From Clostridiaceae bacterium (lineage in GTDB: Bacteria > Bacillota > Clostridia > Acetivibrionales > DTU013), in the NCBI GenBank assembly GCA_012730015.1, contig JAAYBT010000187.1:1-40668 (forward strand): a stretch of DNA of 40,668 nucleotides, read 5' to 3'. The translations under genes and the position numbers were made by a program. The notes beneath the pieces are model-generated. The model worked only from the letters and a program-made list of their open reading frames with translations. It was not told where the DNA came from and did no database searches. The number at the start of each line of letters is the position of its first letter. Position 1 is the first letter of the stretch. This document shows positions 4,249 through 39,112 of the stretch, piece by piece.

Positions 4249-6216
4249 CTATTTATGATTGCTTTCATCCTTCTGGTACTGCAACAAATAGAGAGAATGG
4301 TACATGCCCTTCTTTGCGAGCAGCTCCTGATGATTGCCGGATTCCCTTACTTTGCCCTTGTGCAGCAGGATAATGTTATCCGCATGCTGTATGGTGGAGA
4401 GCCTATGGGCAATAACAATGGTCGTGCGGTTTTTGGTGAGCTTGTGCAAGGCGTCCTGTATTAGCAGTTCCGTTTCGGTATCAATATTGGAGGTGGCCTC
4501 ATCCAGCACCAGTATAGCGGGATTGAAGGCAAGTGCGCGCGCAAATGCGAGCAATTGTCTTTGGCCTGAGGAAAGAGTTGAACCGCGCTCCATTACTTCC
4601 GCTTCGTAGCCTCCGTGTAAATTGTTGATGAAGCCGTCGGCATTAACATATTCTGCCACTGCCTTGATTTGCTCATCGCTTATGCCTTCCTCATTCAGCC
4701 GGATATTATCCTTCAGCTTGCCGCTGAAAAGAAAGACATCCTGCAGCACGACGCCGATATACCTTCTCAAATCATCCTTGTAAATGTCTCGTATGTTTAT
4801 GCCATCTATCAATATCTCGCCATTCTGAATTTCATATAAACGGCTGAGCAGGTTGATTATGGACGTCTTGCCGGCACCTGTCGCGCCTACAATGGCAACG
4901 GTTTGACCGGCAGGCACCTTGAAGCTTACATCTCTGAGTACCCAATCCTCATTATTGTATGCAAACCATACGTTTTTGAATTCAATATCTCCCTTGAGGG
5001 TATCATCCTCGAGATGCACTGTCCCATCGTCCTCTTCCTCGGGGGTATCTAGTATCATAAATATCCTTTCTGAGGCGGCCATTGAGGCTTGAAGAATGTT
5101 ATACTTCTCCGCAAGGTCGTTGATTGGCTGAAAGAGCATTGAGATATAGTTAATAAAAGAATATAGAATACCGAAGGTAAGAGCGCCATCCAAGACCTTA
5201 ACACCACCGAACCAGATAAGTAAGGCAAGTGAAAAGGAGGAGAGCATTTCAATAACCGGTCGAAACAGCCCGAAGGTAACAACCTCGTTCATTACCGCCT
5301 TTTTATACTCTTCTCCCGTTTCGTTGAATCTATCAAAGCTTTGATTCTCTCTACTAAACATCTGAATGACTCGCATGCCTGAGATGTTCTCAGAAATGGC
5401 AGAATTAATCCTTGCCAGCGCAATGCGCACATTTCTGTAAACCTTTCTGATCTTGACCCTAAAAAATATAGTAAGGATTACTACGATAGGCATTACAGCC
5501 AGGGCAACAAGTGTGAGTGAAACGTTAAGCCTGAACATAATTACCACTGTACCGGCCAGCAGCACAAAGTCCTTTAATAGAGTAACAAGGACGTTGGTGT
5601 ACATATCGTTCAGCGTTTCCGTATCATTGGTCACGCGGGTAACCAGCCTGCCTATGGGGTTTTTATCAAAATATGAAAGGGGCAGTTTTTGCATGTGCGA
5701 AAAAAGCTTCTGGCGAATATTATATATAATGGACTGGCCTGCGTAGCTCAACACATATATCTGCAGCAAATTGAACAGAAAACCGGCGACTAGCAGAATC
5801 AAAAAATATATACCCATCCGGTTTAAGGAAGCGCTATCGCCGGCTTTGATATAATCATCTATTGTGATACCCATCAAATATGGTCTAATTAGGTCCACAG
5901 CTGTTGAAGCAAACAGAAGGAGGACTGCGATAAGGAAAAAGAACCAATACCGGGCTGCAAAGGTCAGTAGCCTCTTCATCAATCGCGAGTCATAAGCCTT
6001 TAATTCCAGCTCTTCTTCCTGCAAGACATCACTTTCATATAAGCTATTGATTTCCTGAGAATCGTTCTGCTGCCTCTTGCCTTGCTGCTCCTTGCCTTGG
6101 TTCTCGTTGCTTCGGCTATCTACGCCTTGGCGCTCTTTGCTTCGGTTGTCTACGCCTTGGCGCTCTTTGCTTTCCTGCTCCGTATTTATGTTTACATGCC
6201 TGTTGTTTTTGCCCAT
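4249..6216 (-). CDS. ABC exporter half-transporter, canonical-site subunit (BmrD/YheH-like)
   Basis: This 655-residue type IV ABC exporter subunit fuses an N-terminal six-helix membrane domain (about residues 85-375) to an ATPase domain. The Walker A is GATGAGKTS (about 442-450), the signature is LSSGQRQLLAFARAL (about 547) and the Walker B is ILVLDEATSNIDTETE with the catalytic glutamate present (about 568). It forms an evident heterodimer with the upstream gene, whose stop codon lies 1 base before this ATG (TAATATG), so translation is probably coupled. The first 75 or so residues form a charged Gln/Arg/Ser-rich extension with a tandem 10-residue repeat (SKERQGVDNR, SKERQGVDSR) that is unusual for the family. 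Likely substrates are drugs, lipids or peptides, but none can be assigned from sequence. Confidence 0.9.
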   Translation of the reverse strand: MGKNNRHVNINTEQESKERQGVDNRSKERQGVDSRSNENQGKEQQGKRQQNDSQEINSLYESDVLQEEELELKAYDSRLMKRLLTFAARYWFFFLIAVLLLFASTAVDLIRPYLMGITIDDYIKAGDSASLNRMGIYFLILLVAGFLFNLLQIYVLSYAGQSIIYNIRQKLFSHMQKLPLSYFDKNPIGRLVTRVTNDTETLNDMYTNVLVTLLKDFVLLAGTVVIMFRLNVSLTLVALAVMPIVVILTIFFRVKIRKVYRNVRIALARINSAISENISGMRVIQMFSRENQSFDRFNETGEEYKKAVMNEVVTFGLFRPVIEMLSSFSLALLIWFGGVKVLDGALTFGILYSFINYISMLFQPINDLAEKYNILQASMAASERIFMILDTPEEEDDGTVHLEDDTLKGDIEFKNVWFAYNNEDWVLRDVSFKVPAGQTVAIVGATGAGKTSIINLLSRLYEIQNGEILIDGINIRDIYKDDLRRYIGVVLQDVFLFSGKLKDNIRLNEEGISDEQIKAVAEYVNADGFINNLHGGYEAEVMERGSTLSSGQRQLLAFARALAFNPAILVLDEATSNIDTETELLIQDALHKLTKNRTTIVIAHRLSTIQHADNIILLHKGKVRESGNHQELLAKKGMYHSLYLLQYQKDESNHK

Positions 6217-6217
6217 A

Positions 6218-8068
6218 TTAATCCGCCCTCTCTATCTCATCGGCTAGAAGCTGTCTTGTGTGCAGACTATGGTAATAGCCGCCCAGCTCAAGCAATGATG
6301 TGTGAGTACCCCGCTCAATGATCTGTCCATCGTCCAACACTATTATTTCGTCCGCATCCTTTACCGCAGATATTCTGTGGGAAACAATAATGCTTGTGCG
6401 CTGCTTCATCAGCTTCTTTAGATCACCCAGGATACTTTCCTCCGTTTTGGCATCAACAGCCGAAAGGCAGTCGTCCAATATCAGAATAGAAGGGGAACCC
6501 AGCACAGCTCTTGCAATAGCAACACGCTGTTTTTGACCGCCTGACAACGTAACTCCCCTTTCGCCGACTATGGTGTCGAATTGCCCGGGAAATTCCATAA
6601 TATTATCATATAGCCTTGCAATCCTGGAAGCATTTTCAACCTCATCCATGCTGAAGTCCCGGTAGAAATCGATATTGTTGCCTATAGTATCGGAGAACAA
6701 AAAGGTGTCTTGGGGAACACAGCCGATACTGCCCCTTAGCAGGGACAGTGGGATATCGTTAATGTCTGTGCCGTCAATTAGGAGAGTGCCGGCGGGCACA
6801 GATAAAAGTCTTGGAATCAGGTTGATCAATGTGGTTTTACCGGTGCCTGTACGCCCAACTATTGCAAGGGTCTTACCGCTCTCAACAGTGATGCTGATGT
6901 TTTTCAGGACAGGGTTTGCAGAGCCGGGGTAGGTAAACGATAAATTCCGGAATTCGATTCGTCCTAGGATTTTGCTTGTTGCCGGGCTTTCTATCCGGCC
7001 TTCAATACCGGCTCCGATTTTGCTTTCAATCCTCTTTTCGTTGTAAGCGGCGCTTTTATTTGGTCCGAATTCGTCCGCCTGATAATTGCTACTTTTTCTA
7101 TCAGATATCTCCGGCCTTTCGTCCATTATTTTGTTAATTCTCTCAAGCGACACGGAGCCTCGCTGAAAGATGTTAGCTACCCAGCCGAGAGCTGTGATAG
7201 GCCATATGAGCAAGCCCAGGTATGAATTGAATGCGACGAAATCCCCTAATGTCAAGGAGCCCTCGATAACCATAATTCCGCCATACCATAAGGCTATGAT
7301 AAACGAAAGAGAGGATATGAGCATTACGCTTGGAAACATCATGCTCATAAGTCTTGTAAATCTCAAATTAGCTTCCTTATTAATCTTATTGACAGCTCTA
7401 AATTTTTCAATCTCCTTTTGCTCCTGCACGAAGGATTTGACGACCCTTATGCCTGAAAAATTTTCTCTGGCAGTTTCAGTCAGGTTTGAAAAGGCCTCCT
7501 GCTGCTTGGTAACAGTGGATTCCATGATTTTCATGAAGAAGAGGACTGTAATCGCCAGTAGTAATAGAGGAGCAAAACAAGCCGCAGTCAGGCGCCAGCC
7601 GGCGGTAATGAGCATCATTATCAAGGCTGCTATGGGGATCATCAGACAGTCAATCGCAAAAATGACTCCCTGACCGGTAGCCATGGTGACATTGTTCATG
7701 TCGTTCGTTGCGTGGGCCATAAGGTCGCCGGTCTTGTGAGTGTTGAAGTAATTTGATGATAGCCTTTGCAGATGCGCGTAAAACCTGTTTCTAAAAGAGA
7801 GCTCTATGGATCTGGATGCTCCGTACAGCGCATACCTAAATAGAAACCTGAATGTAGCTATGCCAATCGCAATTAGTGCGATAATAACTGCGAACTCGGC
7901 CAGTTTAGCTCTTGTCAGTGTTCCGCCTTCCAGTGAGTCTGTAGCATTGCCCAGAATTTTCGGCATCACCAGCTGGAGTATATCGACGCATAGTAGAAAG
8001 ATAACGCCCAGTACATACCTGTATTTGTGCCATAGTAAAAGATCTCTGATATATCTAAAAGCGCTCAT
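6218..8068 (-). CDS. ABC exporter half-transporter, degenerate-site subunit (BmrC/YheI-like)
   Basis: This is the first gene of the exporter operon (616 residues from the ATG at 8068). AGGAGA lies 9 bases upstream of that ATG; the longer frame to 8143 runs into the promoter dyad and is rejected. The membrane domain covers about residues 15-320. The ATPase domain has Walker A GRTGTGKTT (about 403), signature LSGGQKQRVAIARAV (about 508) and Walker B ILILDDCLSAVD (about 528). The residue after the Walker B aspartate is Asp rather than Glu, as in BmrC-type subunits that carry the degenerate ATP site. The linker between domains (DNA about 6965-7100) has an insertion of some 40 residues with repeated RIES/GRIE units. 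The order BmrC-like then BmrD-like matches B. subtilis bmrCD. Confidence 0.9.
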   Translation of the reverse strand: MSAFRYIRDLLLWHKYRYVLGVIFLLCVDILQLVMPKILGNATDSLEGGTLTRAKLAEFAVIIALIAIGIATFRFLFRYALYGASRSIELSFRNRFYAHLQRLSSNYFNTHKTGDLMAHATNDMNNVTMATGQGVIFAIDCLMIPIAALIMMLITAGWRLTAACFAPLLLLAITVLFFMKIMESTVTKQQEAFSNLTETARENFSGIRVVKSFVQEQKEIEKFRAVNKINKEANLRFTRLMSMMFPSVMLISSLSFIIALWYGGIMVIEGSLTLGDFVAFNSYLGLLIWPITALGWVANIFQRGSVSLERINKIMDERPEISDRKSSNYQADEFGPNKSAAYNEKRIESKIGAGIEGRIESPATSKILGRIEFRNLSFTYPGSANPVLKNISITVESGKTLAIVGRTGTGKTTLINLIPRLLSVPAGTLLIDGTDINDIPLSLLRGSIGCVPQDTFLFSDTIGNNIDFYRDFSMDEVENASRIARLYDNIMEFPGQFDTIVGERGVTLSGGQKQRVAIARAVLGSPSILILDDCLSAVDAKTEESILGDLKKLMKQRTSIIVSHRISAVKDADEIIVLDDGQIIERGTHTSLLELGGYYHSLHTRQLLADEIERAD

Positions 8069-8123
8069 AGTAAAACATCTCCTGTAGTTATGGGAACAAG
8101 TTTTTGCAGATGTAGATGTAGAT

Positions 8124-8159
8124 ATTATATCATGAATCTTCACAGATTCATGATATAAT
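8124..8159. promoter_or_regulatory. Perfect 15-bp dyad carrying divergent extended -10 elements
   Basis: Positions 8124-8138 and 8145-8159 are perfect inverted repeats separated by TTCACA. Each arm contains the extended -10 element TGATATAAT, on the plus strand at 8151-8159 and on the minus strand at 8132-8124. The site sits between the minus-strand exporter operon (start codon 56 bp away) and the plus-strand 5'-nucleotidase gene. No clear -35 elements are present at the usual spacing. This fits a divergent promoter pair overlapping an operator for a dimeric regulator. Confidence 0.6.
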
Positions 8160-8500: not shown

Positions 8501-9088
8501 ATGGGGTTGCATTATTATTTGCAGACAGTACGCAAACTGAATAATATGGGACGCTGGTCCACTGACTTCATGCACCAGAGGGCAACGGTCAGCGAACATT
8601 CCTTTTTTGTTTCTCAGGTAGGCCAGATGCTGGCACTGATTGAAGAGCAAAATGGAAATGAGATTGATTGGCGCAGACTTTTTAAGAAGCTGCTAAACCA
8701 TGATGTGGTTGAGGCAATGACCGGTGATATTATCAGTACCGTGAAGCATAAAAACGAGCAGCTCAGAGACATGCTGAACATTTTGGAGAAGGAGGTCGTC
8801 GAGGAGAATTTGCTTGTGAATATGGAGGAGCCCTATAAAAGTATTTACAGAAATATTCTCTTTGATGGCAAGGACGACACAATAGAAGGGAGAATTCTCA
8901 TTTGCGCAGACTATATAGATGCGATTATGGAGTGTGTTAATGAGGTGCGGCTAAACAATATCGTGCCCTTTGTTGACAAATACTATGCCATTGTTGATAA
9001 GCTCTGCAAGTCGGATCTTGTCAGCGCAAAATACTTTATTGATGAAATATTGCCGGAGCTTGTGAAGGGCTGTGCATCTTTAGAGTAA
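8501..9088 (+). CDS. yfbR: HD-domain 5'-deoxynucleotidase, YfbR-like
   Basis: This 195-residue protein hydrolyses (deoxy)ribonucleoside 5'-monophosphates, by homology to E. coli YfbR (199 residues). Its key residues fall at almost the same numbers: Arg18-Trp19, His33 (SEHSFF), His67-Asp68 (NHDVVEA), Glu71, Asp76 and Asp137 (CADYIDA). These form the metal site of the HD fold and the substrate-selecting Arg/Trp. GGGAGAG lies 5 bases before the ATG at 8501, which gives a protein of family length; the longer open frame upstream is non-homologous and crosses a repeat. It stands alone, with fabZ 46 bp downstream. Transcription probably starts at the dyad promoter at 8151-8159, leaving a leader of about 335 nt. 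Confidence 0.88.
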   Translation: MGLHYYLQTVRKLNNMGRWSTDFMHQRATVSEHSFFVSQVGQMLALIEEQNGNEIDWRRLFKKLLNHDVVEAMTGDIISTVKHKNEQLRDMLNILEKEVVEENLLVNMEEPYKSIYRNILFDGKDDTIEGRILICADYIDAIMECVNEVRLNNIVPFVDKYYAIVDKLCKSDLVSAKYFIDEILPELVKGCASLE

Positions 9089-9134
9089 ATTGGCTTAGGT
9101 TAATAGGGCAATAAAAAATAGTTGAGGTGTAAGG

Positions 9135-9674
9135 ATGCTTTCTAATGTAGATATACAAAAAATAATACCCCACAGATATCCATTTTTACTGGTGGATCGC
9201 ATAGTCGAACTTGAGCCCGGTAAAAGGGCAGTGGGAATTAAGAATGTTACCGTTAATGAGCCCTTCTTTCAGGGCCATTTCCCAGGATTTCCGATTATGC
9301 CGGGGGTACTGATTGTCGAAGCTCTCGCCCAGACGGCAGGTATCGCCGTAAATGCCGATGCAGCAGACCTGGGCAGCGAGGCCGCAGATGTTGGCGATAA
9401 AGCAGGCACAGGCGGTAGTGCAGGTGCTGGCGATAGTTCGGGCGCAGGCAGCGAAGCTAAAACCGAGATTAAGGATAAGAAGCTGGGTGTTTTCGCAAGC
9501 ATAGACGCAATGAAGTTTAAAAAGCAGGTAATGCCTGGAGACACATTGCGCATGGAGGTTGAAATACTATCTTCGAAGCTCGGTGTCGTTAAGGCAAAGG
9601 TGAAAGCCACTGTAGAGGGTAAAACCGCAGCAGAGGGCGAGATTCGATTTGCCATGACTACGGTCAAGGCATAG
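9135..9674 (+). CDS. fabZ: 3-hydroxyacyl-ACP dehydratase FabZ, with internal low-complexity insertion
   Basis: FabZ dehydrates 3-hydroxyacyl-ACP in type II fatty acid synthesis. The N-terminal half is canonical: IIPHRYPFLLVDRI, then FFQGHFPGFPIMPGVLIVEAL with catalytic His48 and Glu62. The second half (LGVFASIDAMKFKKQVMPGD) is also typical. Between them, about residues 73-115, lies a Gly/Ala/Ser/Asp-rich segment with AAD and GAGD repeats, bringing the length to 179 against the usual 140-150. The insertion replaces the short loop after the central helix of the hot-dog fold, so the enzyme could still be active. GAGGTG lies 6 bases before the ATG. No other fab gene is adjacent. The stop codon falls within the first unit of a 24-bp tandem repeat. 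Confidence 0.93.
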   Translation: MLSNVDIQKIIPHRYPFLLVDRIVELEPGKRAVGIKNVTVNEPFFQGHFPGFPIMPGVLIVEALAQTAGIAVNADAADLGSEAADVGDKAGTGGSAGAGDSSGAGSEAKTEIKDKKLGVFASIDAMKFKKQVMPGDTLRMEVEILSSKLGVVKAKVKATVEGKTAAEGEIRFAMTTVKA

Positions 9675-9757
9675 CAAAGATCAGCGGTCAAGGCATGGCA
9701 AAGATTAGTGGTCAAGGCATAGCAAAGATCAGCGGTCAAGGCATAGCAACGGTCACC
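9662..9757 (+). repeat. 24-bp tandem repeat starting in the fabZ stop region
   Basis: Units begin at 9662, 9686, 9710 and 9734, each opening with GGTCAAGGCATAGCAA (unit 2 has TGG in place of TAG). The period is exactly 24 bp. The first unit includes the last codons and stop of fabZ, so the array seems to have expanded from the gene's 3' end. The last unit is cut short and merges into a 39-bp array. Confidence 0.9.
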
Positions 9758-9841
9758 TGAAGAGCATAACAACAATCAAGGCTAGCAACGGTCACCTGAA
9801 GAGCATAACAACAATCAAGGCTAGCAACGGTCAGGCTGTAG
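9751..9841 (+). repeat. 39-bp tandem repeat following the 24-bp array
   Basis: Two nearly complete units begin at 9751 and 9790 with GGTCACCTGAAGAGCATAAC, and a partial third begins at 9829 (GGTCAGGCTGTAG). The unit also contains the ATCAAGGC and TAGCAAC words of the 24-bp repeat, so the two arrays are related. Confidence 0.85.
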
Positions 9842-9846
9842 CCTTG
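9816..9846. terminator. Stem-loop between convergent fabZ and murC
   Basis: CAAGGCTA (9816-9823) pairs perfectly with TAGCCTTG (9839-9846). It lies at the end of the tandem-repeat region and could end transcription from either side. A T tract is not evident. Confidence 0.35.
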
Positions 9847-9898
9847 CTCAGATCACATATAGCTGAAAAATAACAACTGCTAAGGCCCCAAATAATAG

Positions 9899-11308
9899 TC
9901 AGCTAACGGCAAGCTTTTTTCTGGCGTCCAGAAACATCTCGCCAACCTTGTATATGTCCCCGGCTCCCATTGTTATGATAAGATCGCCGGGCTCCGCATT
10001 TTTATCGAGGAATTCGACTATTGAATCAAAGCCCTTAATATAAAAGGCTTTTTTGCCTGTGCCCAGTATCCTTTCCGCAAGGATGGAGGAGTTAACTTCT
10101 CCGGAGTCCACCTCGCGAGCGGCATAGATGTCTGACAATATCACGAAATTTGCATCACCAAATGATTTAGAGAATTCGTCCAACAGGCACTTTGTACGGG
10201 TATAGGTATGCGGCTGGAAAACGCACCAAATCCTTGAATAATGGCAGTTAGCGGCGGCTTTTAATGTGGCGGCCACTTCTGTAGGGTGATGAGCGTAATC
10301 ATCCATCACTGTAATACCTTCGATCTTTCCCTTCAGCTCAAAACGTCTGTTAGTGCCGGTGAATTTTTGTAGTGCTTTTGCCGCAGAGGCCATACTACAG
10401 CCCATTATGCTGCCTGCCACTATTGCCGCGAGGGAATTGCTTACATTATGTATGCCGGGCACCTTCAGCTTAATTTCGCAAACCGGTTCATCTTGATGCA
10501 TTAGGGTATAAGATGCGCACCCCATGCTATCATAGGTGATATTCGAGGCGCTCCAGTCGTGCTCATTATTTTGAATCCCAAAGGTAACTCTATTGCAGGA
10601 CACACGCTCCATAATATCGACGGCCAAAGAGTTATCTGCATTGACCAGCAACCATCCATTCTCAGGAACAAGCTGTGCAAACCTATGAAAAGAATCCTGA
10701 ACCTGCGCCAAGTCCTTGAAATAATCAGCATGGTCATATTCGATGTTCAGGATAACAGCCAAATAGGGGTGTAGTTTTAGAAAGCTTCCTGTATATTCGC
10801 AGGCTTCGGCAATAAAATAATCGCTTTCCCCAATCCTCGTAGTACCTCCGATTGCGGTGAGCTCACCGCCGATATGAATGGTCGGGTCAAGCCCCTCTTC
10901 CAGCATAATCATTGAAAGCATGGAGGTTGTCGTGGTTTTCCCATGCGTGCCTGATATGGCTATACTTCTGGGATATTTTGTCATAATTTCGCCAAGCAAG
11001 GCTGCCCGGTCTATCAATGGAATGCTGGCCTCAGATGCCGCGACAAGCTCCGGGTTATTGGGCTTTACAGCCGCTGTGTAAACCAAAAGGTCTACACCGG
11101 TCACGTTTTCGGCCTGATGGCCGATTGTTACCTTAATTCCTGCCTTCTCCAGCTTTTGCGTGATAGAAGAGGACTTTATATCTGAACCCGTTATAATATA
11201 ACCCTGGTTAGCTAGAATCTCAGCAAGACCGCTCATGCTAATTCCGCCTATGCCGGTGAAATGTATCTTTTTTATTTCTCTTGCACCCAAAAGCCCGTCA
11301 ATCTGCAT
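9899..11308 (-). CDS. murC: UDP-N-acetylmuramate--L-alanine ligase MurC
   Basis: MurC adds L-alanine to UDP-MurNAc with ATP, the first amino-acid step of peptidoglycan precursor synthesis in the cytoplasm. The 469-residue protein shows the N-terminal Rossmann motif HFTGIGGISMSGLAEIL (residues 16-32), the Mur ligase ATP loop GTHGKTTTTSM (120-130), the metal/substrate segment EACEYTGSF, and DDYAHHPTEV and QPHTYTRT in the C-terminal domain. The length is normal. It is transcribed against its neighbours and appears monocistronic. A good promoter lies at 11346-11374 on the minus strand, and a weak GGGAGTG ribosome site precedes the ATG. Confidence 0.97.
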   Translation of the reverse strand: MQIDGLLGAREIKKIHFTGIGGISMSGLAEILANQGYIITGSDIKSSSITQKLEKAGIKVTIGHQAENVTGVDLLVYTAAVKPNNPELVAASEASIPLIDRAALLGEIMTKYPRSIAISGTHGKTTTTSMLSMIMLEEGLDPTIHIGGELTAIGGTTRIGESDYFIAEACEYTGSFLKLHPYLAVILNIEYDHADYFKDLAQVQDSFHRFAQLVPENGWLLVNADNSLAVDIMERVSCNRVTFGIQNNEHDWSASNITYDSMGCASYTLMHQDEPVCEIKLKVPGIHNVSNSLAAIVAGSIMGCSMASAAKALQKFTGTNRRFELKGKIEGITVMDDYAHHPTEVAATLKAAANCHYSRIWCVFQPHTYTRTKCLLDEFSKSFGDANFVILSDIYAAREVDSGEVNSSILAERILGTGKKAFYIKGFDSIVEFLDKNAEPGDLIITMGAGDIYKVGEMFLDARKKLAVS

Positions 11309-22385: not shown

Positions 22386-23933
22386 TTGAAGGGGATAGTA
22401 GCTTATAAAAACGGGAATTACGCCATTGTATTGACTAAGAACGGATCGTTTATGAAAGTGAAAGCTACGAAGGACATGGTAATTGGGCAGGAAATTGATT
22501 CGAACCGGCCCTCCGAAAGGGCAAAGAGGAGGAGGCTTGTTACAAGGATTGCGTCAATTGCAGCAGCAGGATTGCTGACACTTGGAGTAGGGTACGCAGG
22601 CTATTGCTATACTTTGCCTTATAGCTATGTTCATGTTGATATCAATCCGAGTGTTGAGCTTACAGTCAATATTTATGACAGAATCATAGAAGTGGAAGCC
22701 CTGAACCATAGTGGAGAAGGCCTGATTGACGCAAGCGATCTCAAGAATCATAGGGTCGATATAGCAGTCAAGCAGCTGCTTAATGCTGCGGTAGAGCAAG
22801 GATATTTAGATAGCGATGATCCGCAATTGGCTGGCAAGGGAATAATTTCCGGCAAAGGGCAGACTACTGAAGAAGCCGATATTGTAACGGGTGGACAAGT
22901 CCCGGACAAACCGGTGGCTGCCGGCAAGGCACAAGCGGCCGATCAAGGTGGTTCTGAGCCGAGCACAGTCCAAAATGCTATTTTGTTAACAGTTTCAAGT
23001 AATAGCTCTAAAAAATCCACTGCATTGAGAGAAAATATTGAGAAAGCGGCTTCAAAGGAACTTGAGAAAGAAAAGGTCAATTCAGAAATCCTCATTGGAG
23101 AAGCTAGTATCGAGCAGAGGAATGATGCCAGAAGGTTTGGAGTTACACCGGGCAAGCTGGTACTAATCGAGGATGCGCTGAAATCGGAAGCCGAGCCGGT
23201 ATCTCAGATTAAGGAGTTTAAGAGAGCGAGCATTAATGATCTGCTGAAAAAGGCAAGCGATAAGGCCGAGGAGAAGTCAAAGCAAGAGGAAGAAAGGGTC
23301 AAGCAGGAGGAGCAGGAGGCAAAAGAAAAGGCTGAGCAGGAGGAGCAGGAGGCCAGGGAGAAGGCGAAGCAGGAGGAGCAGGAGGCAAAAGAAAAGGTCA
23401 AGCAGGAGGAGCAGGAGGCCAGGGAGAAGGCTGAGCAGGAAGAGCAGGAGGCCAGGGAGAAGGCTAAGCAGGAGGAGCAGGAGGCAAAAGAAAAGGCCAA
23501 GCAGGAAGTGCAGAAGGCAAAGGAAAAGGCCAAGCAGGAAGTGCAGAAGGCAAAGGAAAAGGCCAGGCAGGAAGTGCAGAAGGCAAAGGAAAAGGCCAGG
23601 CAGAGCAACAGCGGCAAAAGCTTCTGGGATGATGCCGCCAAGAAGCGCCAAACCCAGAAAGACAATAACCATAGCAATTCAGCCAAATCAGGTAATGGTA
23701 AAAAGAACAATGCCGAGAAGCTCCAAAAGGATTTGAAGGATGAAAGAGAAAAGCTGAGAGAAGATCTGCTTGGACAGCTAAAAGGCAGACAGGATAACAA
23801 TCACGAGAATCAGTATAAAATAAATGGGCGTAAAGATAGCCTTTATAAGCAAAATAGTAATGATAGGGATAAGAAGAGGGAGTGGGGCAGCTGGCTAAAT
23901 AGCAGTAAAAAATCAAATAATAGCCGCAGATAG
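22386..23933 (+). CDS. rsgI: RsgI-type anti-sigma-I factor with C-terminal 11-residue-repeat coiled coil
   Basis: This single-pass membrane anti-sigma factor of SigI has 515 residues. The cytoplasmic RsgI N-terminal domain starts at once (MKGIVAYKNGNYAIVLTKNG, about 1-50). One membrane segment follows (ASIAAAGLLTLGVGYAGY, about 51-70). The conserved periplasmic part begins YVHVDINPSVELTVN. A Gly/Ala/Gln-rich linker lies around residues 148-195. The extracytoplasmic tail holds nine 11-residue repeats (KQEEQEAKEKA type) and a basic, Asn/Lys-rich end. No carbohydrate-binding module is seen, unlike many C. thermocellum paralogs. Translation starts at TTG 22386, 8 bases after AAGGAGG. Confidence 0.92.
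   Translation: MKGIVAYKNGNYAIVLTKNGSFMKVKATKDMVIGQEIDSNRPSERAKRRRLVTRIASIAAAGLLTLGVGYAGYCYTLPYSYVHVDINPSVELTVNIYDRIIEVEALNHSGEGLIDASDLKNHRVDIAVKQLLNAAVEQGYLDSDDPQLAGKGIISGKGQTTEEADIVTGGQVPDKPVAAGKAQAADQGGSEPSTVQNAILLTVSSNSSKKSTALRENIEKAASKELEKEKVNSEILIGEASIEQRNDARRFGVTPGKLVLIEDALKSEAEPVSQIKEFKRASINDLLKKASDKAEEKSKQEEERVKQEEQEAKEKAEQEEQEAREKAKQEEQEAKEKVKQEEQEAREKAEQEEQEAREKAKQEEQEAKEKAKQEVQKAKEKAKQEVQKAKEKARQEVQKAKEKARQSNSGKSFWDDAAKKRQTQKDNNHSNSAKSGNGKKNNAEKLQKDLKDEREKLREDLLGQLKGRQDNNHENQYKINGRKDSLYKQNSNDRDKKREWGSWLNSSKKSNNSRR
23301..23597 (+). repeat. 33-bp x 9 tandem repeat coding for hendecads in RsgI
   Basis: Nine consecutive 33-bp units encode KQEEQEAKEKA variants; six carry QEEQEA and the last three QEVQKA. 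The period equals 11 residues, typical of an extended coiled coil. The segment is in frame throughout, and unit-to-unit DNA identity is high enough for length changes by slippage or recombination. Confidence 0.95.
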
Positions 23934-33685: not shown

Positions 33686-35222
33686 CTTTACCGGTCAGTT
33701 TCAACAGAGGATACTTGAGGCCATTCGAGCCAACCACTTGATTGAAAACGGTGACAGAGTAGTGGTGGGTGTTTCGGGAGGGGCTGATTCCGTATGCCTT
33801 CTTCATGTCCTTCATTCTCTTTCCAGAGCTCTTCAGATAAAGCTTTATGCAGTTCACATAAATCATATGCTTCGTGCCGATGAGGCCGATGGGGATGAGC
33901 GATACACAGCCGATCTTTGTGAGGAGCTAGGCATTCAACTGTCATCGACTCGTATTGATGTGGGAGCCATGTCTAAAAGCCTGGGAATATCACTGGAGGA
34001 AGCCGGAAGAAAGGCGCGATATGGCGAATTCTCCCGTTGTGCTCAGGCTGTGGGGGCATCTGTTATTGCCGTTGCTCACAATAGAAATGATCAGGCCGAA
34101 ACTGTCATGATGAATATTATGAGGGGCTCAGGCATCGCTGGTCTTTCAGGCATGGAGTATAAAAAAGGAAAAATCATAAGGCCTCTTCTTGACATAAGTA
34201 GAGATGAAATTGAGCGCTATTGCACAGAGGCTGGGCTTTCACCAAGAACAGACAGTTCAAATCTGACGGAGGAATTCACCCGGAACAGGGTGCGGCTGGG
34301 ATTGTTTCCTTATATAATGGAGAATTTCGGGATTAACATGGAGGTTAGTCTTTGTAGGCTATCTGCTCATGCTGCTAAGGATAACAGTTTTCTGGATGAA
34401 TGTGCGTCTAAGGCATATTTAGCCGCTCTCAATGTCAAGCAGAAAGGTCAGGTTAAAGGAAAAGAGCAGGGACAAGATCAGGGGCAAGACCAGGGACAAG
34501 ACCGGCAGCAAGACCGGCGGCAAGAGCAAGGAGGAGGCAAGGGACAGGTTGAATTAAAAGCAGAAAAGCTTATGAGTCTTCACCCGGCGGTGCTAAATAG
34601 AGTATTGAAGCTGGCTATCACCGATGTTGCGGGCAGTAGCAAGGGAATCGCCTCAGTCCACTACCAAAGTCTCACCGATCTTATCGTAAAGGGAAGGACC
34701 GGCGCTATCGCAGAGCTTCCTGGTGGAATTAGGGGCGTTTTTGCATACGGTGTTTTGAAGATATTCATTTCACACTCAGATTACTCGAATAGTGAGGATA
34801 TTAATTTTTGCGTGGATTTGAATATCCCGGGAACCGTTCGGGTGCCTGAGCTGGAGGCGACTGTGACAGCCTGTATTGTTAGGGATACAAATATTGATAA
34901 TTACCCGCAGTTAGTATATAATCCTTTCATGCAATTTTTTGATTACGATAAGCTTAATAGGGGAATTATTATTAGGAATCGAAGAATGGGCGACAGATTT
35001 GCACCCTTTGGATCAAATGGGACCAAAAAACTGAAGGAATATTTTATTGACAGTAAAGTGCCCAGAGAGCAACGTAGTATGATTCCCCTTATTTGCATGG
35101 ATGATGAGATTGTTTGGGTCATTGGAGATAAAATAAGTGATAAATTCAAGGTAACTGAAAATACTAAAAGTATTCTAAGAATAAAGTACAGCGGAGGATT
35201 TCATCATGATGGGGGATATTGA
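33669..35222 (+). CDS. tilS: tRNA(Ile)-lysidine synthase TilS, with Gln/Asp-rich insertion
   Basis: TilS makes lysidine at position 34 of tRNA-Ile(CAU), changing both codon and amino-acid identity. The PP-loop GVSGGADSVCLLHVL (about residues 34-48), HINHMLRADEADGDE and AVAHNRNDQAETVMMN are conserved. The C-terminal domain ends NRRMGDRFAPFGSNGTKKLKEYFIDSKVP. At about residues 255-297 lies a low-complexity run with repeated GQDQ/QDR units, making the protein 517 residues against about 470. It overlaps dnaB and hpt by 17 bp each, so translation is probably coupled. The ribosome site at the ATG is weak. Confidence 0.94.
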   Translation: MIITSSFTGQFQQRILEAIRANHLIENGDRVVVGVSGGADSVCLLHVLHSLSRALQIKLYAVHINHMLRADEADGDERYTADLCEELGIQLSSTRIDVGAMSKSLGISLEEAGRKARYGEFSRCAQAVGASVIAVAHNRNDQAETVMMNIMRGSGIAGLSGMEYKKGKIIRPLLDISRDEIERYCTEAGLSPRTDSSNLTEEFTRNRVRLGLFPYIMENFGINMEVSLCRLSAHAAKDNSFLDECASKAYLAALNVKQKGQVKGKEQGQDQGQDQGQDRQQDRRQEQGGGKGQVELKAEKLMSLHPAVLNRVLKLAITDVAGSSKGIASVHYQSLTDLIVKGRTGAIAELPGGIRGVFAYGVLKIFISHSDYSNSEDINFCVDLNIPGTVRVPELEATVTACIVRDTNIDNYPQLVYNPFMQFFDYDKLNRGIIIRNRRMGDRFAPFGSNGTKKLKEYFIDSKVPREQRSMIPLICMDDEIVWVIGDKISDKFKVTENTKSILRIKYSGGFHHDGGY

Positions 35223-37702: not shown

Positions 37703-37738
37703 AGCATAGATTTTGATGCACCGACAATTAAATAGACC

Positions 37739-37885
37739 CTTATCAAGAGAGGTGGAGGGACTGAGCCCGATGAAACCCCGGCAACCGGCCTAACGGCAGC
37801 GGTGCCAATTCCTGCAGGTTGCGTCCTGGAAGATGAGGTAATAAGAATGTGTAAGCCTCTTTCTTTTGGAAGAGGTTTTATTTTT
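37739..37885 (+). ncRNA. SAM-I (S-box) riboswitch with terminator, controlling metK
   Basis: The aptamer begins CTTATCAAGAGAGGTGGAGG (37739-37758), followed by CCCGATGAAAC and CCGGCAACC, the invariant S-box core. P1 is CTTAT 37739-37743 with ATAAG 37841-37845. The expression platform is a terminator stem CCTCTTTC/GGAAGAGG (about 37856-37875) followed by TTTTATTTTT. GATGAGG (about 37832-37838) can pair with the terminator's CCTC arm as antiterminator. SAM binding should terminate transcription of metK, a classic feedback loop. Confidence 0.97.
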
Positions 37886-37918: not shown

Positions 37919-39112
37919 ATGGCGAGAAGACTATTTACATCAGAATCAGTAACTGAGGGGCATCCGGACAAAGTGTGCGATCAGATATCTGACGCCGTGC
38001 TGGACGCAATATACTTAGAGGATCCATTTGCTAGGGTAGCATGTGAGACAGCGGTAACAACCGGTATGGTGCTTGTAATGGGCGAAATATCAACACAATG
38101 CTATGTGGATATCCCTAAGGTAGTAAGGAATACCATTAGTGAAATCGGTTATACAAATGCAGAGTTCGGGTTTGATACGAAGACCTGTGCAGTCCTAACA
38201 TCGATAGATGAACAGTCCGGCGACATTGCCATGGGCGTTGATAAATCATTAGAGGCAAAAACGCAGGCGAATCAGGATTTACAGGCGGAGGATAATGGGG
38301 CGGGCGATCAGGGAATGATGTTTGGCTTTGCATGCGATGAAACACCCGAACTCATGCCCATGCCTATATCTTTGGCACACAAGCTGGCCAAGAGACTTAC
38401 TGATGTGCGTAAGGACGGAACGTTGGAGTATCTTAGACCGGATGGCAAGTCCCAGGTGACTGTAGAATATGATGACGACAGACCCATAAGGGTAGATACT
38501 GTAGTCATATCGGCTCAACACAATCCTGAGGTACCTCGCGAAGTTATTGAGAGGGATATAATAGAACTGGTCATCAAGAAGATTATTCCCTCAGGTCTGC
38601 TTGATAATAAGACGAGGTTTTTAGTAAATCCAACGGGCAGATTTGTCGTGGGAGGTCCTCAGGGAGATTCAGGTCTTACCGGCAGGAAAATAATTGTGGA
38701 TACCTATGGTGGTTATGCAAGCCACGGCGGAGGGGCCTTCTCCGGCAAGGACCCTACTAAGGTCGACCGGTCTGCTGCATACGCTGCAAGATATGTGGCA
38801 AAGAACATTGTAGCGGCTGGGCTCGCGAAAAAGATTGAGGTTCAGCTGGCCTATGCCATTGGCGTTGCAAGACCTGTATCTGTGGCAATCAACACTTACG
38901 GAACAGGCATACTGTCCGAAGAAAAACTCATTCAACTCGTGCAAGAGAATTTTGATTTACGGCCTGCATCCATTATCAGGGATCTGGGGCTCAGAAGACC
39001 TATATATAAGCAGACGGCGGCATATGGTCATTTTGGCAGGACAGATATTGATTTGCCCTGGGAGAAGACCGACAAGATCGAACTGTTGAAAAATGCAGCA
39101 GCAAAGCTATAG
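37919..39112 (+). CDS. metK: S-adenosylmethionine synthetase MetK
   Basis: MetK makes SAM from methionine and ATP. The 397-residue protein begins [27 protein letters not shown]. It contains [16 protein letters not shown], the P-loop-like [21 protein letters not shown] and [19 protein letters not shown], all diagnostic. The length is typical. AAAGGAG is 8 bases before the ATG. Expression is governed by the SAM-I riboswitch directly upstream. Confidence 0.98.

Follow-up and report, generated by a model that had tools for sequence, protein, structure and literature searches.

The fabZ gene of a Clostridiaceae bacterium (genome G000) runs into a tandem-repeat array that starts inside its last codons. 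We conclude that this array is very probably a neutral, lineage-specific minisatellite, formed when the 3′ end of fabZ was duplicated in tandem. It lies in a stretch of 40,668 nucleotides (contig JAAYBT010000187.1, assembly GCA_012730015.1), here called the window, and was first noticed in a reading of the letters alone (the original prediction), which described four 24-base-pair (bp) units of exact period beginning in the last codons of fabZ. That description holds: Tandem Repeats Finder (TRF) recovers the 24-bp array at 9661–9749 with a score of 157, and a 39-bp array at 9736–9833 with a score of 187, where the highest score among 2,000 dinucleotide-preserving shuffles of 9640–9900 was 68. 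The gene, its stop and the repeats are as follows.

9135..9674, plus strand: fabZ, encoding 3-hydroxyacyl-acyl carrier protein dehydratase, an open reading frame (ORF) of 179 amino acids (NCBIfam TIGR01750, 178.4 bits, above the curated cut-off of 155.15).
9672..9674, plus strand: the fabZ stop codon TAG, within unit 1, the ancestral protein end by alignment with the FabZ ends of relatives.
9661–9684, 9685–9708, 9709–9732 and 9733–9756, plus strand: four 24-bp units (TRF and unit alignment).
9736..9840, plus strand: the 39-bp family (TRF), comprising 9736–9775 (40 bp), 9776–9814 (39 bp) and a partial unit from 9815.

The period of the 24-bp units is exact, and their identity to unit 1 is 24, 22, 23 and 21 bases out of 24. 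The final third of unit 4 already belongs to the 39-bp family, making this unit a hybrid; the predicted passage into longer units is real, except that the first of them is 40 bp long. The 40-bp and 39-bp units differ by a 1-bp indel, and their TAGs are still 39 bases apart. Unit 2 has TGG at 9696–9698 where the other units have TAG, as had been read from the letters, and the stops encountered along the array in the fabZ frame are TAG at 9672, 9720, 9744, 9783 and 9822, followed by TGA at 9864. Adenine accounts for 37% of the array, compared with 29.5% of the window. The units are tandem, head to tail, between 10 and 100 bp in length and beyond chance expectation, as in minisatellites. They are contiguous, with none of the unique spacers that separate the repeats of clustered regularly interspaced short palindromic repeat (CRISPR) loci, and a single 8-bp inverted repeat at the array edge is all that recalls the palindromic units of repetitive extragenic palindromic (REP) elements. 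An antisense ORF across the array (9269–9775) was taken to be a chance ORF.

The fabZ stop lies within unit 1, which makes this unit the parent and the other units its copies. Relatives from the same family stop FabZ at the identical place (AMTTVKK, AMTAVKK, AMTSVKK or similar, followed by the stop), and unit 1 covers codons that are conserved among them (AMTTVK plus the stop); the copies therefore derive from fabZ, in agreement with the proposal that the repeats grew out of the end of the gene by slippage. No coding repeat tail was found in FabZ: the array follows the stop in unit 1, and the protein end aligns with those of relatives. Residues H48 and E62, which we take to be catalytic, are invariant in 24 aligned sequences. 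The array is non-coding; FabZ is not lengthened and nothing indicates that it will be. Because unit 2 is open, a protein that lost only the fabZ stop would run on to the next in-frame TAG at 9720 and gain 16 codons, of which the first is the former stop, rather than one unit; this corrects the idea that a single base change per unit would extend the protein by repeats.

The array is private to this genome. It matches a single place in G000, unlike dispersed families such as REP or mycobacterial interspersed repetitive unit (MIRU)-like repeats, which have many genomic copies. A search of 291 genomes of the class found no convincing copy; the one other match (29 bp, 90% identity, E = 2.2e-4, in G160) looks like chance. 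A dispersed repeat family was ruled out on these grounds. Viral contigs contained no match to the exact pattern of one unit, and phage and plasmid records contained no match to the array; a mobile or phage origin was rejected on this basis. By FabZ similarity, a Clostridiaceae metagenome-assembled genome (MAG) and Ruminiclostridium papyrosolvens are the closest named genomes, which places the host on the clostridial side.

Arrays of this kind are common in the lineage. We surveyed 1,749,343 bases from G000, its family and one order-level genome (G009) at a TRF score of at least 50, with ORFs defined by a crude longest-ORF rule and no gene finder, and with two arrays of mixed content left out. 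Array density is 6.7–11.7 per 100 kilobases; the G000 sample contains 32 arrays in 367,006 bases, and among its non-coding arrays the fabZ array is outscored by one at another locus (L047, score 233). Periods that are multiples of three were found in 52 of 64 coding arrays compared with 26 of 88 non-coding arrays, the latter being the chance level. Selection on frame is plain within genes and absent outside them. By simple reasoning, when a duplicated segment includes the stop, translation meets the first copy and ends there, so that the protein stays the same however long the period, and a period divisible by three outside a gene is therefore no sign of coding. The argument that units of 24 and 39 bp keep a read-through frame, in any sense that involves selection, fails on both counts. 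We found no preference for gene 3′ ends, which were crossed by 9 arrays with 8.4 expected from random placement; 5′ ends were crossed by 4, with 8.0 expected. Convergent gaps are not a hot spot either: in the family sample, arrays occupy 1 of 48 convergent, 12 of 171 tandem and 3 of 53 divergent gaps. Outside the family the fraction for convergent gaps is higher (4 of 19), in small numbers.

We infer the mechanism of duplication, the order of events and neutrality as follows. A stretch of 24 bp, comprising the last fabZ codons, the TAG and ten bases beyond it, would have been duplicated in tandem by slippage or unequal exchange between short direct repeats. Point changes and the hybrid junction would have given rise to the 39–40-bp unit, and this unit would itself have been duplicated later; the second duplication is probably the more recent, because one indel is all that distinguishes its copies. 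As every copy comes with a stop and translation reaches copy 1 before the others, the protein is untouched, and the silent array would have been tolerated in the gap between fabZ and the convergent gene murC.

Some observations weigh against this account. The analysis covered a single genome of the genus, so ongoing copy-number change is no more than a possibility. TAG stands at five of six in-frame positions, and conservation by selection could be argued; we attribute its retention to simple descent, as the units are young enough. Finally, the array occupies the site at which most relatives keep a terminator-like hairpin, and for this reason it may have a regulatory role. Two further features are relevant here.

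9899..11308, minus strand: murC, the convergent neighbour of fabZ (NCBIfam TIGR01082, 477 bits, above cut-off).
9816..9846, plus strand: an inverted repeat (CAAGGCTA / TAGCCTTG, loop of 15), the sole one of at least 8 bp at the array, with no T run.

The gap between fabZ and murC is 224 bp in length, and the array takes up much of it. Of 18 relatives examined, 15 have the two genes in convergent orientation with a gap that could be measured; these gaps span 6 to 242 bp, and 14 of the 15 are no longer than 153 bp. Three of the 18 have arrays of their own in the same gap, unrelated in sequence, with units of 145 bp (G002), 15 bp (G008) and 14 bp (G014). Of the 17 relatives scanned, 13 show a terminator-like hairpin on one or both strands in or at the gap (weakly in G002 and G005), and G000 has none, which speaks for the view that the array has a function at the 3′ end and replaced a bidirectional terminator, perhaps by offering Rho an unstructured loading site on one of the transcripts. 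The minus strand of the array would suit such a role, as G is scarce there relative to T and YC steps are slightly more frequent, at 12.0 per 100 nucleotides compared with 8.6 in the window. However, on the strand that is read out of fabZ, C is less frequent than G and YC steps are scarcer than in the window, the RNA folds no better than shuffled sequences (z = −0.75), and four other genomes (G003, G027, G015 and the DUMB01 MAG) have neither a hairpin by the same scan nor such an array. We therefore consider a functional replacement unlikely. A scan of 9000–10200 found no terminator-like site and one promoter-like site (minus strand, 10065–10037), a count below the shuffle mean of 1.8; a terminator or promoter in this interval was rejected on this basis. 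Rfam models, run across the window, gave no match at the array, and this, together with the folding result, led us to reject an RNA element.

Assembly from short reads of a metagenome bin could in principle have created some of the array or set its number of units. G000 consists of 278 contigs with 87.27% completeness, and there is little sequence difference between the 39-bp copies, so the copy number of the array is uncertain. Its existence is hard to explain in this way, as the units are not identical to one another and each flank occurs once, with gene order as expected; an artefact is thus very improbable. We give next to no credence to the idea that the in-frame TAGs beyond the stop (9720, 9744, 9783 and 9822) form a ladder selected as a fail-safe against fabZ read-through: such a ladder arises automatically when a stop-bearing unit is copied at a spacing divisible by three, the TAG of unit 2 has been lost, and a survey of eubacteria reports no evidence that additional downstream stops are selected for (PMC6764699). 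Just as far-fetched is a translated FabZ tail through read-through or recoding of TAG, which would account for the repeat-like sense sequence kept in frame between the TAGs, yet TAG is an ordinary stop here (it ends 10 of 25 long window genes tallied, including fabZ and murC), FabZ already ends where the FabZ proteins of relatives end, and a model of pyrrolysyl-tRNA synthetase (PylS) found nothing above cut-off in G000, giving two weak matches like those that 13 of 14 control genomes also gave.

The array over the fabZ stop has parallels in relatives. In G006 (L156, 3774–3844), a 25-bp array begins within the final codons of an ABC transporter gene homologous to window positions 6218–8143 and includes the stop, with the same geometry as at fabZ. 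In G001 (L055, 11681–11870), a 19-bp array of ten units starts within larE (NCBIfam TIGR00268, 350 bits; cut-off 150). With their 25-bp and 19-bp periods, these two arrays illustrate the point made above about duplication over a stop, at periods that three does not divide. The G001 LarE has 21 residues after the motif GYRTGSMN, compared with 4 to 12 in 24 other LarE proteins (29 were examined, 4 of which lacked the motif by the pattern used). Units 1 and 2 (11681–11717 of L055) encode its last dozen residues, and the array continues beyond the stop to 11870. It is plausible from this one assembly that array units apparently became the LarE tail, although three does not divide their period. The view of the fabZ array as a snapshot of coding tails in the making survives to that extent, with LarE as one plausible case and FabZ itself not lengthened. 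A wider proposal, which we put forward tentatively and consider doubtful, is that stop-straddling arrays in this family steadily supply proteins with new tails: fabZ in G000 and the ABC transporter in G006 would represent the silent stage and larE in G001, where the array continues for eight more units, the realized stage, and the same activity would feed the low-complexity loops that are private to FabZ, to TilS and to the ABC transporter of these genomes.

The lineage makes such in-frame low-complexity loops separately from the 3′ array. FabZ contains one.

9360..9464, plus strand: an in-frame, private, repeat-like low-complexity insert of 35 residues in FabZ (about residues 76–110; FabZ alignment).

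At the same position, 17 other aligned FabZ proteins have 0–6 residues, and the TRF score of the insert was reached by 1 of 2,000 codon shuffles. A structure model from 24 sequences shows a confident FabZ fold, in which residues 80–111 have a predicted local distance difference test (pLDDT) score below 50; the insert is predicted to be disordered and to lie in a loop after the central helix. TilS (window 34455–34569) carries a private, repeat-like insert of 32 residues that is rich in Gln and Asp, with different inserts at the same loop in G014 and G012, and a loop of the ABC transporter contains differing repeat-like text in G000, G001, G002 and G006. MurC has no such insert. Listings, abstracts and passages from the literature on fabZ with tandem repeats, insertions or low complexity in Clostridia contained nothing relevant.

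Among known systems, the fabZ array is an ordinary young minisatellite, of a kind already known in bacteria. It resembles bacterial minisatellites or variable-number tandem repeat loci in its contiguous, imperfect, head-to-tail units of tens of bases, its uniqueness to one locus and its position between genes; variation in copy number among strains is the trait that defines those loci, whereas this array is known from one genome. In Borg elements, all repeats in ORFs have periods that are multiples of three, compared with 14–38% of intergenic repeats, and the repeats are enriched in A (PMC9879509). The arrays of our lineage show a similar contrast between coding and intergenic periods, and the fabZ array is also A-enriched; it differs in its imperfect units and in its place on a chromosomal contig of a bacterium on the Clostridia side. 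Clostridium difficile is described in one study as having many satellites, each unique (PMC6749651); the fabZ array shares this uniqueness without dispersal, with shorter and fewer units. Extension of C termini by loss of the stop codon has been described in yeast and flies (PMC4494051), and is the route that had been suggested for FabZ, where it is not realized. As a single locus the fabZ array carries little weight, and it serves to illustrate that a repeat over a stop is silent at any period. Silent arrays at stops, one apparent translated tail and private loops in essential enzymes would together offer a tractable setting in which to watch tails and loops arise, if strains could be compared.

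Two other repeats noted in the window are coding. Repeats of 33 bp at 23290–23603 encode Lys/Glu/Gln-rich sequence in an uncharacterized protein that looks membrane-anchored; it is RsgI-like by eye and has no NCBIfam match. Repeats of 30 bp at 6094–6172 belong to an ABC transporter (ORF 4249–6216, minus strand) and fall within its N-terminal tail. The sole Rfam match in the window is an S-adenosylmethionine (SAM) riboswitch (RF00162) at 37737–37839, upstream of an ORF (37919–39112) that we take to resemble metK.
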